Program-made: the position numbers and the translations under genes
Shown: piece by piece, positions 1 to 62,745 of the stretch
How positions within the stretch are numbered: position 1 is the stretch's first letter
Layout of the letters: each line of letters opens with the position of its first letter
NCBI GenBank assembly: GCA_031262295.1
Contig: JAISIA010000007.1
Span: 1-64,000 of the forward strand
Length of the DNA stretch: 64,000 nucleotides
Source of the DNA: Bacteroidales bacterium
GTDB taxonomy: Bacteria > Bacteroidota > Bacteroidia > Bacteroidales > P3
Reading direction: 5' to 3'
The notes under the pieces: generated by a model
The model's database searches: none
Seen by the model: only the letters and a program-made list of their open reading frames with translations
Told to the model about the DNA's origin: nothing

Positions 1-28
1 CCGAAACTCCCCAAATTGGAAAACGCCA

Positions 29-60
29 TTTGCATTTGTCAAAATAATTTTATATCTTTG
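29..60 (+). promoter_or_regulatory. Bacteroidota-type promoter in L1 (TTTG-N20-TATCTTTG)
   Basis: TTTG at 29-32, 20-nt spacer, TATCTTTG at 53-60; same spacing in L2 and L3. Confidence 0.6.
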
Positions 61-165
61 CCGAAACAAAGTTTCCTTTAAGGGCAATAAAGTCTTAATT
101 CTCCCAATACTTATTTTTATTTTTAATATCAAGATAATAGCTTAATTATTAGCTTATTATCTTTA

Positions 166-245
166 AATAAATCTTCGTTTTAGAAAATTATTTCTTCGTT
201 TTAGCAAAATAAAACGCTGTTTTATTTAAATATTTCTTCGTTTTT
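166..245 (-). repeat. 21-bp repeat array A1
   Basis: aaatcttcgttttagaaaattatttcttcgttttagcaaaataaaacgctgttttatttaaatatttcttcg. Confidence 0.75.
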
Positions 246-563
246 TTCTGAAAAAATAAGGATTTTGTTTTTAAAATTAAATTTTTGGAAAATTATATTA
301 AAATTTGCTTGGATTATATTGAGGATTAATAAATTAAAAAATTGAAAAAATTTTAACAAATTTTGGAGTTGAGAAAGTTGAAAAAATGAAGAAATGTTAA
401 AAATTCTTGAAATTTTGTGTTTTTTACAAGGCTTAAATGTTAAAATTTGGGGATTTTGCGGGGAAATTTTGTTAATTTTTTTTCTGAAAAAATAAGATTT
501 AAATCTTTGTTTTTGTGGAATTGATTGTTAATTATTGCCTTCCTTATGCCAAGCGGTATTTAT

Positions 564-7715: not shown

Positions 7716-9209
7716 ATGAGTGATATTACAACATTAGCAAAACAAACTGCAATATATGGAATACCCACAATTGTAGGACGCTTTCTAAACTATTTCCTTG
7801 TCCCATTATACACCTATAATATAGCAACCCAAAATTATGGAATAGTAAGTGAGTTGTATGCTTATATAGCTTTCTTAATGGTTATCCTAACTTATGGAAT
7901 GGAGACTGCTTTTTTCCGTTATTGGCAAACAGAAAACAATAAGCAAATTGTTTATAATACGGCTCTATTATCCTTAATTGTATCAACTTCATTATTCATA
8001 ATTATAACTTTTTTATTTATAAATCCCATTTCATCCTTATTGGAATATGAAAATCATAAGAATTACATAGTTCTTTTCCTATTAATCCTTGCATTGGATG
8101 CTCTTCGTGCTATCCCTTATGCCCTATTAAGACAATTGCAAAAGGCAAAACGTTTTGCCTTTATAAAAACTATGGACATCTTTTCAAACATTGCTTTTAA
8201 TCTTTTTTTCATTTTACTTTGTCCAATTTTATATAAAAATCAAAATATTCTTTTTTCTTGGTTTAACCCTAATGATTTAGTTTTATATATCTTTGTTTCT
8301 AATCTATTGGCTTCACTTATTGCCTGTCTTTTATTATTACCCGAATTCTTAAAATTTAGGTATAACGTTAGTTTTTCCTTATTAAAGAAAATGCTAATTT
8401 ATGGTTTTCCTGTTATGATTGGAGGTTTGGCAGGAATGATTAATGAAACCTTTGACCGCATAGCCTTAAAACATATCATAAGTGTTCCAAGCAATATAAC
8501 AGATGCAAAAGATGTGATGGATTATAAGATGAGTCAATTGGGAATTTACGGAGCTTGCTACAAACTTTCAATAATTATAAGTTTGTTTATACAGGCTTTT
8601 AAGTTTGCAGCAGAGCCTTTCTTCTTTTCAAAGATGAAAAAGGAGGATGCAAAGAAGACCTATTCCAATGTTATGACCTTTTTTGTAATGTTTCTCTCAT
8701 TAGTTTTTCTTGGAGTTATGGGATATATGGATATATTCAAATATTTTATTGGTCAAGATTATAGAATAGGACTAAAAGTTGTGCCAATACTTTTGGGAGC
8801 AAATATTTTCTTGGGCATATATTATAACCTTAGTATATGGTATAAAGTGACAGATAAGACAAAATTTGGAGCTATTATTTCAATAATTGGAGCTGTAATA
8901 ACACTTACACTAAATTACGTTTTAATTCCAATATTTGGTTATATGGGTGCAGGATGGACAACATTTATATGCTATTTTTCAATTGCAATTATATGCTATT
9001 TCTTGGGACAAAAGTTCTATAAAATAAATTATAACATAAAACACATCATCATTTATATGTTTTCTGCACTTATATTATTTATAATAATGTATAATGTCAA
9101 AATTAATAATAGCATATTATCAATTTTATTCAACACAATATTAATTCTCATTTTTATAATAGAGGCATACTTTCTTGATATAAGAAAATTAATAATCCAA
9201 AAGAAATAA
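7716..9209 (+). CDS. Lipopolysaccharide/oligosaccharide flippase family protein (Wzx-like)
   Basis: ~12-14 TM segments, N-terminal LAKQTAIYGIPTIVGRFLNYFLVPLYTYN. Confidence 0.85.
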   Translation: MSDITTLAKQTAIYGIPTIVGRFLNYFLVPLYTYNIATQNYGIVSELYAYIAFLMVILTYGMETAFFRYWQTENNKQIVYNTALLSLIVSTSLFIIITFLFINPISSLLEYENHKNYIVLFLLILALDALRAIPYALLRQLQKAKRFAFIKTMDIFSNIAFNLFFILLCPILYKNQNILFSWFNPNDLVLYIFVSNLLASLIACLLLLPEFLKFRYNVSFSLLKKMLIYGFPVMIGGLAGMINETFDRIALKHIISVPSNITDAKDVMDYKMSQLGIYGACYKLSIIISLFIQAFKFAAEPFFFSKMKKEDAKKTYSNVMTFFVMFLSLVFLGVMGYMDIFKYFIGQDYRIGLKVVPILLGANIFLGIYYNLSIWYKVTDKTKFGAIISIIGAVITLTLNYVLIPIFGYMGAGWTTFICYFSIAIICYFLGQKFYKINYNIKHIIIYMFSALILFIIMYNVKINNSILSILFNTILILIFIIEAYFLDIRKLIIQKK

Positions 9210-9220
9210 TTCCTTTTTTT

Positions 9221-9267
9221 GTCGGCAACCGACCCGCAACGGGCATTTAGTTATCCTTACGGAAATA
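9221..9267 (+). repeat. REP-like hairpin R1 with two consecutive CAA-triloop hairpins
   Basis: GTCGG-CAA-CCGAC (9221-9233), then CCCG-CAA-CGGG (9233-9243), then ttatccttacggaaat. Confidence 0.7.
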
Positions 9268-9304
9268 AAGAATATTACATTTATATATTAATAATTTTAT
9301 AAAA

Positions 9305-9402
9305 ATAAAACGCTGTTTTAATTTACTAAAACGAAGAAATAATTTATTAAAACGAAGAAATAATTTTCTAAAACGCTGTTTTAATTTACTCAATCTTCGT
9401 TT
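9305..9402 (+). repeat. 21-bp repeat array A2
   Basis: taaaacgctgttttaatttac/taaaacgaagaaataatttat/taaaacgaagaaataattttc/taaaacgctgttttaatttac, ending in an inverted half-unit atcttcgttt. Confidence 0.8.
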
Positions 9403-9480
9403 GTCGGCAACCGACCTTTATTTTCCCTGCGGAAGTAAAGAATATTACATTTATACATTAATAATTTCATAAAAATAAAA
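9403..9480 (+). repeat. REP-like hairpin R2 plus trailing block duplicated from R1
   Basis: gtcggcaaccgacctttattttccctgcggaagtaaagaatattacatttatacattaataatttcataaaaataaaa, closely matching 9254-9310. Confidence 0.75.
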
Positions 9481-14663: not shown

Positions 14664-14765
14664 AACAGCGTTTCCTTTTACTAAATCTTCGTTTAAAAAA
14701 ATTATTTCTTCGTTTTAGTAAATTATTTCTTCGTTTTAAAAACTTAAAACGCTGTTTTATTTTTA
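14661..14765 (-). repeat. 21-bp repeat array A3, overlapping the stop codon of the AsmA-like gene
   Basis: taaaacagcgtttcc..aaatcttcgttt..attatttcttcgttttagtaaattatttcttcgttttaaaaacttaaaacgctgtttta; first TAA is the CDS stop. Confidence 0.75.
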
Positions 14766-14795
14766 AAAAAAACAGCATTTTTTTAGCAAAAAAAT

Positions 14796-14959
14796 AAAGT
14801 TTTTTAACAATAAAACCAGACTTCCGACCGCCAAGCGGCTTTTATTTTTCCTGTCAGAATAGAGTTTTTTAACAATAACACCAGACTTCCGACCGCCAAG
14901 CGGCTTTTATTTTTCCTATCGGAATAGAGTTTTTTAACAATAGAACCAGACTTCCGTTA
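14796..14959 (-). repeat. 65-bp tandem repeat (2 full + 1 partial) of type-II REP-like hairpins
   Basis: (a)(a/g)agttttttaacaataacaccagacttccgaccgccaagcggcttttatttttcctatcggaat at 14796, 14861 and partially at 14926; CCGC-CAA-GCGG hairpin. Confidence 0.85.
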
Positions 14960-14961
14960 GG

Positions 14962-15007
14962 AAAAACAGCAGTCGGCTTCCGACAAAACAGCAGTCGGCT
15001 TCCGACC
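14962..15007 (-). repeat. 22-bp tandem pair of GTCGG-CTT-CCGAC hairpins
   Basis: aaacagcagtcggcttccgac twice in succession. Confidence 0.8.
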
Positions 15008-15011
15008 AAGA

Positions 15012-15959
15012 TTAGAAGATGCTTAGATTTATGTATTTTTTTGGATTTTGTTTAATGTCTTCTATTAGGGCATCAAGTTTTTTTGTGGATGTTTCTAAGT
15101 TTTTGTATAATTTATCATCCTTTATTAGTAGTCCAACTGAGCCTTCACCCCTATTTATTGATTGTAGGATTTGTGAAAGAGAATTTATTGATAAGTTCGT
15201 TTGTCTTATTGTATTTCCCAAGTTAGCCTTAGCTACTGTATCGCTTATATTGCTAAAATTATTTATAGCATTAGTTAGAGCATTACTATTATTGTTTAGT
15301 GTATTTGTAAGGTGATTGACATTTGATATAATTTCTTTGAGTTTTATTTTTTCCTCTGCAATAAGGTTATCCATATTTATGGATAGGGTTTTAAGATTTT
15401 TTGTTGCGATATTTATATTTTCCATTGAGGATTTAATATCATTCTGTGTTTTTTCATCCAAAACATTATTTACATTAACAAGTAATGTATCAAAATGAGA
15501 CATTACGTTATTTAATTTAACAACAACGGGAGTTATATTGTTTGAAAGCTGGTCTATTATTCCATTTTCCACACCCGATTCTATTGTATCTCTTTTTTGG
15601 AATAGTGTTTTTGATATTCCCATATCTATCTTTAATGCCTTTGAACCTAACATATCAGCGGAGAATATCATAATTTTGGAGTCATTAGGTATTTGAATAT
15701 CGCTTGTAATTGCTATTTGTATTAGAAATTTTCTTGCACTATGGTCAATCATAGTTATATTTTTAATGTAGCCAACCTTCATTCCGTTTAGGTAAATATA
15801 GTTTGATTTATATAAACCTGAGACATTGTCAAAGACTGCATAGTAGTTGGTCTCCACATTAAAAATATCCTTTCCTTTAAGGAACATTATCCCAAAATAT
15901 AGCACTAAAATGGTGACTATACCAACAAAACCTACCTTATATTCTGTTTTAATCTTCAT
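15012..15959 (-). CDS. MlaD/MCE family protein
   Basis: TEYKVGFVGIVTILVLYFGIMFLKGKDIF..YYAVFDNVSGLYKSNYIYLNGMKVGYI. Confidence 0.9.
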   Translation of the reverse strand: MKIKTEYKVGFVGIVTILVLYFGIMFLKGKDIFNVETNYYAVFDNVSGLYKSNYIYLNGMKVGYIKNITMIDHSARKFLIQIAITSDIQIPNDSKIMIFSADMLGSKALKIDMGISKTLFQKRDTIESGVENGIIDQLSNNITPVVVKLNNVMSHFDTLLVNVNNVLDEKTQNDIKSSMENINIATKNLKTLSINMDNLIAEEKIKLKEIISNVNHLTNTLNNNSNALTNAINNFSNISDTVAKANLGNTIRQTNLSINSLSQILQSINRGEGSVGLLIKDDKLYKNLETSTKKLDALIEDIKQNPKKYINLSIF

Positions 15960-24959: not shown

Positions 24960-25583
24960 ATGAAAAAAATATTCATCTTATCGTTTTTTATTTGCTTTTC
25001 TTTCCTAACAACCCAAGTGTTTTCTCAGGAATTTAAGGCAGGAATCCTTTTAGGTGGAATTGCCTCACAAGTAGATGGAGACAATATGAGTGGATATTAT
25101 AAGGCTGGATTTACAGGTGGATTATTCGTTTTTAGAGATTACAAAGAAAATTCCCGCTTTCAAGGAGAAATTCTCTTCTCTATGAAGGGAAGTAGATGCT
25201 CCCCTAAAAACACAAATCCCGATCTATTACAAGTAAGTGCAAACTATATAGACATAAATCTATCATATATATATAAATTATTCTCTTTTCTTCATTGTAG
25301 AATAGGGATAATGCCAAGCGTTTTGGTCTTTTCAGAAGAAAAAACTCCAACAAATCTTATACAAATAGCCGATGAGGCTCCTGCTTTTAGAAGCTTTGGA
25401 CTTCTGGGAAATGCAGGTGTGAGCTATTTTTTCAACGATCGCCTTAGCATAAACTGGACTTACAACTACTCACTTTATAGTATTCGTAGTGGTAATGCAG
25501 AAATTTATACAGACTGGCTTTTAAAAGAACAAAACAATCAACGACACAACTATATGTCTTTTACTTTAGCCTACCAATTTTAA
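24960..25583 (+). CDS. Outer membrane beta-barrel (PorT-like) protein
   Basis: Signal peptide, then EFKAGILLGGIASQVDGDNMSGYYKAGFTGGLFV..FQGEILFSMKGSR. Confidence 0.8.
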   Translation: MKKIFILSFFICFSFLTTQVFSQEFKAGILLGGIASQVDGDNMSGYYKAGFTGGLFVFRDYKENSRFQGEILFSMKGSRCSPKNTNPDLLQVSANYIDINLSYIYKLFSFLHCRIGIMPSVLVFSEEKTPTNLIQIADEAPAFRSFGLLGNAGVSYFFNDRLSINWTYNYSLYSIRSGNAEIYTDWLLKEQNNQRHNYMSFTLAYQF

Positions 25584-25588
25584 ATTAA

Positions 25589-25645
25589 TTCGGCAACCAA
25601 CCTTTTAATCTTCCTAACGGAAGTCTGGTATTATTGTTAAAATCT
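25589..25645 (+). repeat. Degenerate REP-like hairpin R4
   Basis: ttcggcaaccaaccttttaatcttcctaacggaagtctggtattattgtt; stem partly lost, 3' consensus kept. Confidence 0.65.
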
Positions 25646-25680
25646 CTATTTTTTGCTATAAAAAACTAAGATTTTTACAA

Positions 25681-25783
25681 AATAAAACAGCGTTTTGTAA
25701 AATTAAATCTTCGTTTTAGAAAATTATTTCTTCGTTTAAAAAAATTATTTCTTCGTTTTAGAAAATTGAAACGCTGTTTTAAT
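25681..25783 (-). repeat. 21-bp repeat array A4
   Basis: aataaaacagcgttttgtaaaattaaatcttcgttttagaaaattatttcttcgtttaaaaaaattatttcttcgttttagaaaattgaaacgctgtttta. Confidence 0.8.
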
Positions 25784-26061
25784 TATACGCAGTCTTTAAT
25801 TCCATTTTTGATTGTAAAAAAATAAAATCTTTAATTTTGATTTTAAAGATTATAACTAAAAATTGATTATCAAGAAAAAAAACGTTATTTTTTTTGTTTT
25901 CAGGGATTTTTTCTTAAAAAAATTGTTAAAAAAACCTGCTTTTAATACTTAGAAAACCTATTTTCTTAATTTTTTCTTAAAAAATACGCATATATTTTTA
26001 CATATAAAAGAATAATGAGGTGTAAGATGATAGTATTTTTATTATTTTTGCATTCTGATAT

Positions 26062-31654: not shown

Positions 31655-31876
31655 TTATTTATCTTTACATTCAAAAGTGAAGCCTAATGATGCACCATTT
31701 TCCCAACCAGGAATATTATCCCAATTAATGTCTTTGCAATCACCATCAAAATCTGTAATATCAATTGATTGTGAATTACCACTATAAGCCATAGTACAAG
31801 TACAATCAGACTTTGTGTTGCATGCTGTAAAAGATAATGCTGCAAATACTCCAAGTACGAATAAAATCTTTTTCAT
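31655..31876 (-). CDS. Small Cys-rich lipoprotein (paralogue of 30358-30597)
   Basis: Lipobox LSFTAC; mature CNTKSDCTC..CKDINWDNIPGWENGASLGFTFECKDK. Confidence 0.75.
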   Translation of the reverse strand: MKKILFVLGVFAALSFTACNTKSDCTCTMAYSGNSQSIDITDFDGDCKDINWDNIPGWENGASLGFTFECKDK

Positions 31877-32396
31877 AAGTTTTAAAATTTTTTAATTTTC
31901 TCTACTCTATTTTTTTGGATTTTCGAGTTACTCCATAACTTGTGGGCAAAAATAAATAAATAAATAATAATAGCAAGTAATTTTTTGTATTTTTTTACAA
32001 AAATCACATAGTTACAAGTTCAAATAAAGTATAATTTAACAACTTTTTAAGGAATTATTTCTACGTTTTTGTTCAAAAAAAACAACAAAAATTAAAACTA
32101 ATCCCTTTACTCGCCTAATATCTCTTTAAATATATAACCTAAGAATCTAAAATTTTAAAAGTATTTAACATTTCACACCCTATTTTTTACCCCTTTTTTA
32201 ACACTTTATTAAAAAAATTTGCCAAAATTTAACAATTTTTAACATTTCATTCAATTTTTCAATTTTTACTCTTCAAAAATTTGTTAAAATATTCTAAACT
32301 TATTAATCATTTAATTTTCAATATAATCTAAGCAAATTTTAATATATTTTTCTAAATTTTTCATTAAAAAAAACAAAACCTTATTTTTTCAGAAAA

Positions 32397-32475
32397 AAAC
32401 GAAGATTTTTCTAAAATAAAACGCTGTTTTAATTTGCTAAAACGAAGAAATAATTTGCTAAAACGAAGATTTATT
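32397..32475 (+). repeat. 21-bp repeat array A5
   Basis: aaaacgaagatttttctaaaataaaacgctgttttaatttgctaaaacgaagaaataatttgctaaaacgaagattta. Confidence 0.8.
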
Positions 32476-32579
32476 CAAGGATAATAAACTAATAATAAGG
32501 CTATTATCTTGTCATCAAAATTAAAAATAAGTTGTGGGGGAATTTCTATGCCTTTTGCCTTAAAGGCTCTTTGTTTTGG

Positions 32580-32611
32580 CAAAGATATAAAAAAGATTTG
32601 ATAAATGCAAA
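32580..32611 (-). promoter_or_regulatory. Promoter in L2 (TTTG-N20-TATCTTTG)
   Basis: Minus strand TTTG (32611-32608), 20-nt spacer, TATCTTTG (32587-32580). Confidence 0.65.
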
Positions 32612-32638
32612 TGGGAAATTTCAGTTTTGAAATTTTGA

Positions 32639-32668
32639 ATTTAACATTTGAAGGAAAAAATGTTAAAT
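32639..32668. promoter_or_regulatory. Perfect 11-bp inverted repeat upstream of the L2 promoter
   Basis: ATTTAACATTT-gaaggaaa-AAATGTTAAAT; identical at 42637-42666. Confidence 0.55.
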
Positions 32669-42003: not shown

Positions 42004-42213
42004 ATTTAATAAAAATAATAATTCCTCAGCTTTTATTAGTATAGAAATAGCGAAAAGACAAGTTATATATTACAAATAGGCATTATTTTTATACGAAAAA
42101 TTAAAATTACCATATTTTTTAACATTTCAAACCCTAAAAAACACCCCTTTTTTAACACTTTAGTAAATTTTTTCGCCAAAATTTAACATTTTTTAACATT
42201 TCATTCAATTTTT

Positions 42214-42246
42214 GTCGGCAACCGACCTTTATTTTTCCTAACGGAA
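42214..42246 (+). repeat. REP-like hairpin R5 inside L3
   Basis: gtcggcaaccgacctttatttttcctaacggaa; absent from L1 and L2 at the equivalent position. Confidence 0.8.
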
Positions 42247-42352
42247 TTTCATTTTTTCAAATTATTAATTATCAATACAATCAAAACAAAATTTAATATG
42301 TTTCCCCCGATTTTCAATTAAAAAACTCAAAACCTTATTTTCCCAGAAAAAA

Positions 42353-42472
42353 AACGAAGAAAAATTCAAATAAAACGCTGTTTTATTTTGCTAAAACGAA
42401 GAAATAATTTTCTAAAACGAAGATTTATTTTGCTAAAATGAAGATTTATTTTGCTAAAATGAAGATTTATTT
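42353..42472 (+). repeat. 21-bp repeat array A6 (about six units)
   Basis: aaaacgaagaaaaattcaaa/taaaacgctgttttattttgc/taaaacgaagaaataattttc/taaaacgaagatttattttgc/taaaatgaagatttattttgc/taaaatgaagatttattt. Confidence 0.85.
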
Positions 42473-42577
42473 AGATATAATAAGCTAATAATAAGATTAT
42501 TATCTTGAAAGCAAAAATGAAAATAAATTTTGGAAATATTAGAGCTTTATTGCCCTTAAAAGGCTCTTTGTTTTCGG

Positions 42578-42609
42578 CAAAGATATAAAAAAGATTTGAT
42601 ATATGCAAA
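42578..42609 (-). promoter_or_regulatory. Promoter in L3 (TTTG-N20-TATCTTTG)
   Basis: Minus strand TTTG (42609-42606), N20, TATCTTTG (42585-42578). Confidence 0.65.
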
Positions 42610-42636
42610 CGGGAAATTTCAGTTTTGAAATTTTGA

Positions 42637-42666
42637 ATTTAACATTTGAAGGAAAAAATGTTAAAT
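42637..42666. promoter_or_regulatory. Perfect 11-bp inverted repeat upstream of the L3 promoter
   Basis: ATTTAACATTT-gaaggaaa-AAATGTTAAAT. Confidence 0.55.
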
Positions 42667-57110: not shown

Positions 57111-57150
57111 GTCGGCAACCGACCTTTATTTTGTCCTACGGAAGTCTGGT
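57111..57150 (+). repeat. REP-like hairpin R6 (left arm of composite inverted repeat)
   Basis: gtcggcaaccgacctttattttgtcctacggaagtctggt. Confidence 0.8.
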
Positions 57151-57170
57151 TCTATAATTATACATTCTTA

Positions 57171-57214
57171 ATCCGACAGGTAAATAAATGCCGCTTGGCA
57201 GAAGGAAGTCTGGT
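57171..57214 (-). repeat. Inverted type-II REP-like sequence R6b
   Basis: Reverse complement contains gccaagcggcatttatttacctgtcggat, matching 14836-14860. Confidence 0.75.
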
Positions 57215-57244: not shown

Positions 57245-57328
57245 CCTAAAACGAAGATTTAAGAAATTATTTCTTCGTTTTAGTAAATTATTTCTTCGTT
57301 TTAGAAAATTAAAACAGCGTTTTATTTT
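57245..57328 (-). repeat. 21-bp repeat array A7
   Basis: cctaaaacgaagatttaagaaattatttcttcgttttagtaaattatttcttcgttttagaaaattaaaacagcgtttta. Confidence 0.8.
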
Positions 57329-57354: not shown

Positions 57355-57397
57355 AAACCAGATTTCCGTAAGGAAAATTAAAGGTCGGGTGCCGACC
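57355..57397 (-). repeat. REP-like hairpin R7 (right arm, inverted)
   Basis: aaaccagatttccgtaaggaaaattaaaggtcgggtgccgacc; hairpin GGTCGG-GTG-CCGACC. Confidence 0.8.
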
Positions 57398-62650: not shown

Positions 62651-62745
62651 GGTCGGCAACCGACCTTTATTTTTCCTAACGGAAGTCTGGCTGTTTTTTT
62701 ATAAAATCATCAATCCGACAGGTAAAATAAAAGTCAGTTGCCTAC
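62651..62745. repeat. REP-like inverted pair R8
   Basis: GGTCGGCAACCGACCTTTATTTTTCCTAACGGAAG.. and the reverse complement of ..caatccgacaggtaaaataaaagtcagttgcctac. Confidence 0.8.

Follow-up and report, generated by a model that had tools for sequence, protein, structure and literature searches.

A probable REP/REPIN-like family of small hairpin repeats, with copies at stop codons, in an uncultured Bacteroidales genome

The window considered here is a 64-kb stretch of contig C63 from a 2.04-Mb draft genome (99.4% complete, 89 contigs); its nearest named relatives are metagenome assemblies of Bacteroidales. Its genes are ordinary and include those for LptD, LpxC-FabA, SufB, RuvC, a PurL-type AIRS protein, and polysaccharide proteins. 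An Rfam search of the window returned tRNA only; outside the window, a SAM-II riboswitch was matched at L120:11186-11245 (+).

Short hairpins are dispersed among these genes, and a covariance model (R1) built on the hairpin unit identifies 12 units in the window. All of the hairpins listed in the initial annotation exist, with the 13-mer GTCGGCAACCGAC at 9221, 9403, 42214, 57111, and 62652. The first of these (9221-9233, +) is a GTCGG-CAA-CCGAC hairpin with no tail of its own, located 11 nt past the stop codon of the gene at 7716-9209 (+) and abutting the next unit. That unit (9232-9270, +; 47.6 bits) contains the CCCG-CAA-CGGG hairpin at 9233, just as first described, followed by the tail CATTTAGTTATCCTTACGGAA. 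A unit with a GTCGG/CCGAC stem is found at 9403-9440 (+; 51.9 bits). Two plus-strand units with CCGC/GCGG stems occupy 14827-14865 (37.0 bits) and 14892-14930; their CCGC-CAA-GCGG hairpins are as originally reported, except that they begin at 14828 and 14893 rather than at 14826 and 14891. The second of the two is one arm of an inverted doublet (14892-14984), the other arm being a GTCGG/CCGAC unit on the minus strand (14946-14984) with the loop AAG. Another GTCGG-AAG-CCGAC hairpin (14994-15006, -) is situated 5 nt past the stop codon of the gene at 15012-15959 (-).

Further along, a unit with a degenerate TTCGG/CCAAC stem (25589-25628, +) lies 5 nt past the stop codon of a gene ending at 25583 (+), and the covariance model places another at 42214-42252 (+), within a dispersed repeat of ~500 bp. 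Two more inverted doublets follow. The doublet at 57111-57202 consists of a full-tailed unit (57111-57149, +) and a unit with a CTGC/GCGG stem (57165-57202, -), while that at 62652-62745 pairs a unit of consensus sequence (62652-62690, +; 61.1 bits) with a degenerate one (62707-62745, -). The remaining unit (57358-57396, -; 48.4 bits) has a GGTCGG/CCGACC stem and a CAC loop, which reads GTG on the plus strand. Some of the original descriptions need adjustment: the CTT hairpins at 14972 and 14994 and the GTG hairpin at 57383 are real but are minus-strand members, reading GTCGG-AAG-CCGAC and GGTCGG-CAC-CCGACC, respectively, and the family tail follows those at 57383 and 14972 on that strand. The tail that all members were said to share is complete at some sites (57111, 62652), but at other sites its 3′ portion is divergent beyond CGGAA. 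Units at 25589 (+), 57165 (-), 14946 (-), and 62707 (-) had been overlooked.

The complete unit is ~39 nt long and comprises a hairpin of 4-6 bp, capped by a near-constant CAA triloop, and then a conserved tail, CTTTATTTTTCCTAACGGAAGTCTGG, with the consensus [C/A/T]TTTA[T/A/C/G]TT..TCCT(N)ACGGAAGTCTGG. Stem sequence varies widely and includes GTCGG/CCGAC, CCGC/GCGG, CCCG/CGGG, CCAC/GTGG, GCCTG/CAGGC, GCTGG/CCAGC, and GTAGG/CCTAC. Across 67 aligned units, pairing is retained in 93.1% of stem cells compared with 73.2% in shuffles, every one of the five stem pairs has changed on both sides, and double changes are seen in 68 cells versus 20.4 in shuffles. Because the aligned units are paralogues, individual cells cannot be counted as independent events, yet several different compensatory stems coexist. 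Sliding the pairing partners abolishes the signal in the same alignment. The initial proposal that structure is maintained through compensatory stem change is thereby borne out. Another small hairpin, TTCC-TAAC-GGAA, can form within the tail; by eye, its pairs hardly vary. Calculated for RNA, the common stems of the main hairpin reach -4.7 to -5.5 kcal/mol, and those with 6-7 pairs -8 to -10 kcal/mol. Typical REPs of E. coli are longer and stronger. The bases preceding the hairpin are variable (TAA, TA, AAA, TTTT), neither a GTAG nor a CGTC tag is present at its foot, and GTAG occurs in just 23 of 175 downstream tails.

The family is real, non-random, and far above chance. The genome contains 203 exact copies of GTCGGCAACCGAC (93 forward, 110 reverse) versus none of the reversed control pattern, which rules out chance or base composition as the source of the hairpins and upholds the earlier suggestion of a dispersed family. 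With the covariance model, the genome shows at least 171 matches, the best 150 candidates having been scored in detail. In contrast to this abundance, the model found no match in ten congeners, nor, under stricter filters, in any of the other genomes in a family set of 149, and GTCGGCAACCGAC is absent from all ten same-genus genomes and present only once or twice in four of 60 relatives. The repeat has so far been seen in this species only. Viral contigs and plasmids were searched as well, and the lack of any match there speaks against a phage or plasmid origin.

For a view of how units are arranged, 604 kb of the genome (the window plus further stretches) was scanned with the covariance model, yielding 175 units, a density that is biased upward since some stretches were picked around known matches. 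Tail-to-tail neighbours are most often separated by 15-16 nt, producing inverted doublets of 91-95 bp (~92 bp) whose arms can pair to form an imperfect central stem with a small hairpin at each end. Head-to-tail neighbours, on the other hand, are often only 0-4 nt apart. The most extended case is a tandem run of ten units on contig C61, downstream of a gene for an AMP-binding enzyme. Units also occur singly.

Inverted doublets of ~92 bp with hairpin-bearing ends bring to mind MITEs, remnants of DNA transposons that carry terminal inverted repeats. This origin seems very unlikely here, given that units are also single or arrayed head to tail, that no element flanks a transposase at the clusters examined, and that no constant target duplication is visible by eye at 15 doublets, although nested copies obscure their ends.

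Two other kinds of repeat accompany the hairpins. Most of the intergenic mosaics are made of the AT-rich motifs AAAACGCTGTTTT and AAAACGAAGAAATAATTT, which occur in both orientations, usually beside hairpin units; in the window they are found at 9303-9393, 14682-14784, 25671-25784, 57258-57327, and 185-220. The second is the dispersed repeat of ~500 bp, which has many copies in the genome, including those at 42004-42645, 32148-32647, and 26-440 (reverse) of the window. Its minus strand has a Bacteroidetes-type promoter-like sequence, TTTG-N20-TATCTTTG, and its central ~70 bp comes in two versions that are unrelated but alike in length; a hairpin unit is present in one of them. A search of these paralogous repeats for an empty site produced no clean example, the hairpin segment being swapped for the unrelated segment rather than inserted. 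A small lipoprotein-like ORF of 73 aa (MKKILFVLGVFAALSFTAC...) is located at 31655-31876 (-), between a long repeat and a MauE-like gene.

Placement relative to genes is strongly biased. In the 604 kb, where gene calling relied on a simple script based on hexamers and individual starts are approximate, the coding fraction is 0.86, yet 157 of the 175 units overlap no gene. The other 18 touch a gene, in every case at the 3′ end of one on the same strand. Of 61 gene 3′ ends that border a spacer containing units, 48 have an outward-pointing unit as the nearest one, although orientation is partly set by doublet structure and is not an independent test. In 35 of these 48, the hairpin start falls in the interval -42 to +33 nt relative to the stop codon, whereas none of the 13 inward-pointing units is within 50 nt. 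At gene 5′ ends (n = 41), the closest unit is 24 nt away and most are >80 nt away; the difference between 3′ and 5′ ends in having a unit within 35 nt is highly significant (Fisher p = 2e-9). Mapping against gene 3′ ends, as first advised, thus reveals extragenic, 3′-end-biased copies with the hairpin first. On each point the initial annotation had named as decisive, the outcome favours the family: frequency above chance, covarying stems, and a placement that is not unbiased within coding DNA.

Many copies sit at the stop codon itself. Exact hairpin starts relative to the stop include eight at -19, five at -1, and three at 0. By eye, and with truncated hairpins counted, the hairpin starts on the final base of the stop codon or immediately after it in 15 of 38 stop-proximal cases, and in 12 more it lies in the end of the ORF. 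In the -1 class, the first base of the unit completes the stop codon (TA|G or TA|A). In the -19 class, the reading frame crosses the hairpin (typically ...SATDL*) and terminates at a stop codon in the tail. Such a stop is present in the tails of ten of the 12 ORF-entered units compared with 39 of the 163 others (p = 6e-5), a difference to which the gene caller may contribute.

Comparison with related proteins indicates that, in the genes checked, units coincide with the native stop or lie no more than a few codons from it. For example, the TIGR02757 protein ends in ...LFGYGVNNK* in same-genus genomes and in ...LFGYGINK|SATEPATSI* here, while XerD ends in ...YHPLYNKH*, NKG*, or NKRVK* in those genomes versus ...YHPLYKK|PPSGI* here. 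GlmM has lost ~4-7 C-terminal residues relative to congeners, and the KamB profile is complete approximately two residues before the junction with the unit. The placement at stop codons is unusually precise.

One reading of this precision is that insertion is specific, the repeat being directed actively to stop codons or the 3′ ends of transcripts rather than merely surviving there. The 15 copies on or directly after the stop and the 12 in ORF ends would be expected of such targeting, as would the tendency of units beyond terminators to lie close behind the T-tract. Even so, short spacers together with selection against damage to genes and promoters would also concentrate survivors at gene ends, and the variable bases ahead of the hairpin speak against a fixed target; targeting is accordingly considered rather unlikely. 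In its most specific form, a mobile hairpin would be aimed at these sites by an enzyme reading structure plus tail, its own in-frame stop replacing that of the host and leaving the protein unbroken. This version is doubtful.

A role at the RNA level was also considered. The initial annotation had likened the hairpins to mobile terminators or 3′-end stabilisers, and the idea holds in part: three window copies, at 9403 and in 14972-15008, match a simple terminator pattern, and TTTATTTTT follows the hairpin. If units were primarily functional RNA 3′-end elements (intrinsic terminators or mRNA stabilisers), copied and retained for the benefit of the upstream gene, their hairpin-first orientation near stop codons would be accounted for, as would the finding of a canonical terminator ahead of the unit in only one of 38 stop-proximal cases, though there is little room for one. 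The stems, however, are short and weak as RNA, and homologous genes in congeners manage without any unit. Moreover, for 16 genes whose first same-strand unit is farther off (69-364 nt), a canonical terminator intervenes between stop codon and unit in 11, with the unit often close behind its T-tract. Since copies lie past existing terminators, and since a ten-unit array and inverted doublets occur, termination is not supported as the whole explanation. A primary RNA function is therefore quite unlikely, while a terminator or 3′-end role for stop-proximal copies is possible but looks secondary. The same features, taken with the short stems, fit a self-propagating REP/REPIN-type repeat better than an element dedicated to termination.

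As high-copy, short palindromes (the 39-nt unit falls within the 20-40 bp of REPs in the broad sense) that are extragenic and form mosaics of alternating orientation, the units resemble the REPs and BIMEs of E. coli. A subset of E. coli REPs is likewise stop-proximal, many lying within 15 nt after the stop codon, and ribosome stalling has been reported for REPs at this distance (Liang et al. 2015, as cited in PMC12306157). The family differs from E. coli REP/BIME in having a shorter stem, a constant CAA loop, and a conserved 3′ tail, and in lacking a GTAG tag and a detected RAYT; neither of the hallmarks of GTAG-REPs, GTAG at the hairpin foot and a Y1 transposase in the genome, was found. REPINs are REP doublets that form a hairpin (PMC3116915), and the fixed-spacing inverted doublets described here similarly fold as a whole and bear compensatory changes. 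Those of P. fluorescens spread randomly in extragenic space and are linked to RAYT genes (PMC3116915), in contrast to the gene 3′-end units seen here, for which no RAYT was found. CGTC REPs, which also occur in Bacteroidetes, provide a precedent for a family without a dedicated transposase (PMC3733652), but have stems of 8-9 bp, loops of 4-5 nt, and a CGTC tag, as opposed to stems of 4-6 bp, a 3-nt loop, and no such tag.

The search for a mobilising enzyme can be summarized briefly. Y1_Tnp (PF01797; RAYT/IS200-type) has no match in the genome while controls were positive; a match exists in three of 11 genomes of the genus. IS91-type Y2 transposases were not detected, but the control genomes were silent in that search as well, which leaves the result uninformative. 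The neighbours tested beside the densest clusters are ordinary and encode FTCD, an AMP-binding enzyme, GroES/GroEL, TonB, an ABC protein, and an FN3 protein. Enzymes of TnpA-REP subclass 2.6, from the same phylum, are associated with atypical hairpins (PMC6006769) and are candidates for a lost mobiliser; the likeness is one of description, and, unlike in that subclass, no Y1_Tnp gene accompanies the hairpins here. Together with CGTC REPs that do without a dedicated transposase (PMC3733652), this subclass makes a lost or unrecognised HUH enzyme plausible, and it is reasonable to infer one, as an interpretation rather than a result.

Overall, the hairpins probably represent a self-spreading REP/REPIN (BIME)-like family of a known kind, untagged and with no transposase found, whose copies persist mainly at gene 3′ ends. 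Mobility itself is inferred, the comparison having covered one genome per species. Points against this reading are the missing Y1_Tnp gene, the untagged hairpin foot, a hairpin smaller and weaker than that of typical E. coli REPs, and the contrast with the randomly spread REPINs of P. fluorescens. An HUH-like, REP-type enzyme that recognised the single-stranded hairpin plus tail would have spread the copies, and would since have been lost or have escaped recognition. Recombination between copies may have followed, with survival mostly where harm is least, at gene 3′ ends. There, by analogy with the stop-proximal REPs of E. coli, a copy might affect the end of the transcript or delay ribosomes at termination, and may reduce expression of the upstream gene.

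Read in this way, the family would widen the range of REP/REPIN-type repeats to include a Bacteroidales lineage that is AT-rich and uncultured, in a form lacking the usual tag and transposase. It also offers a clear case of copies located exactly on stop codons and themselves ending the reading frame. Two questions are made testable, namely which agent spreads REP-like repeats when no RAYT is present and whether proximity to stop codons reflects targeting, selection, or function.

Sister species have over-represented 12-mers of their own, some of them palindromic, as seen in G006 (L211-L212 and other loci), G003 (L213-L216), and G010 (L217-L220). For instance, the palindromic repeat of G006, GGGCGAACCTATGTGTTCGCCC, is preceded by GTAG. 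These high-copy palindromes appear unrelated to the hairpin family, and the presence of separate repeated sequences in sister genomes suggests that such families are replaced quickly within the genus.
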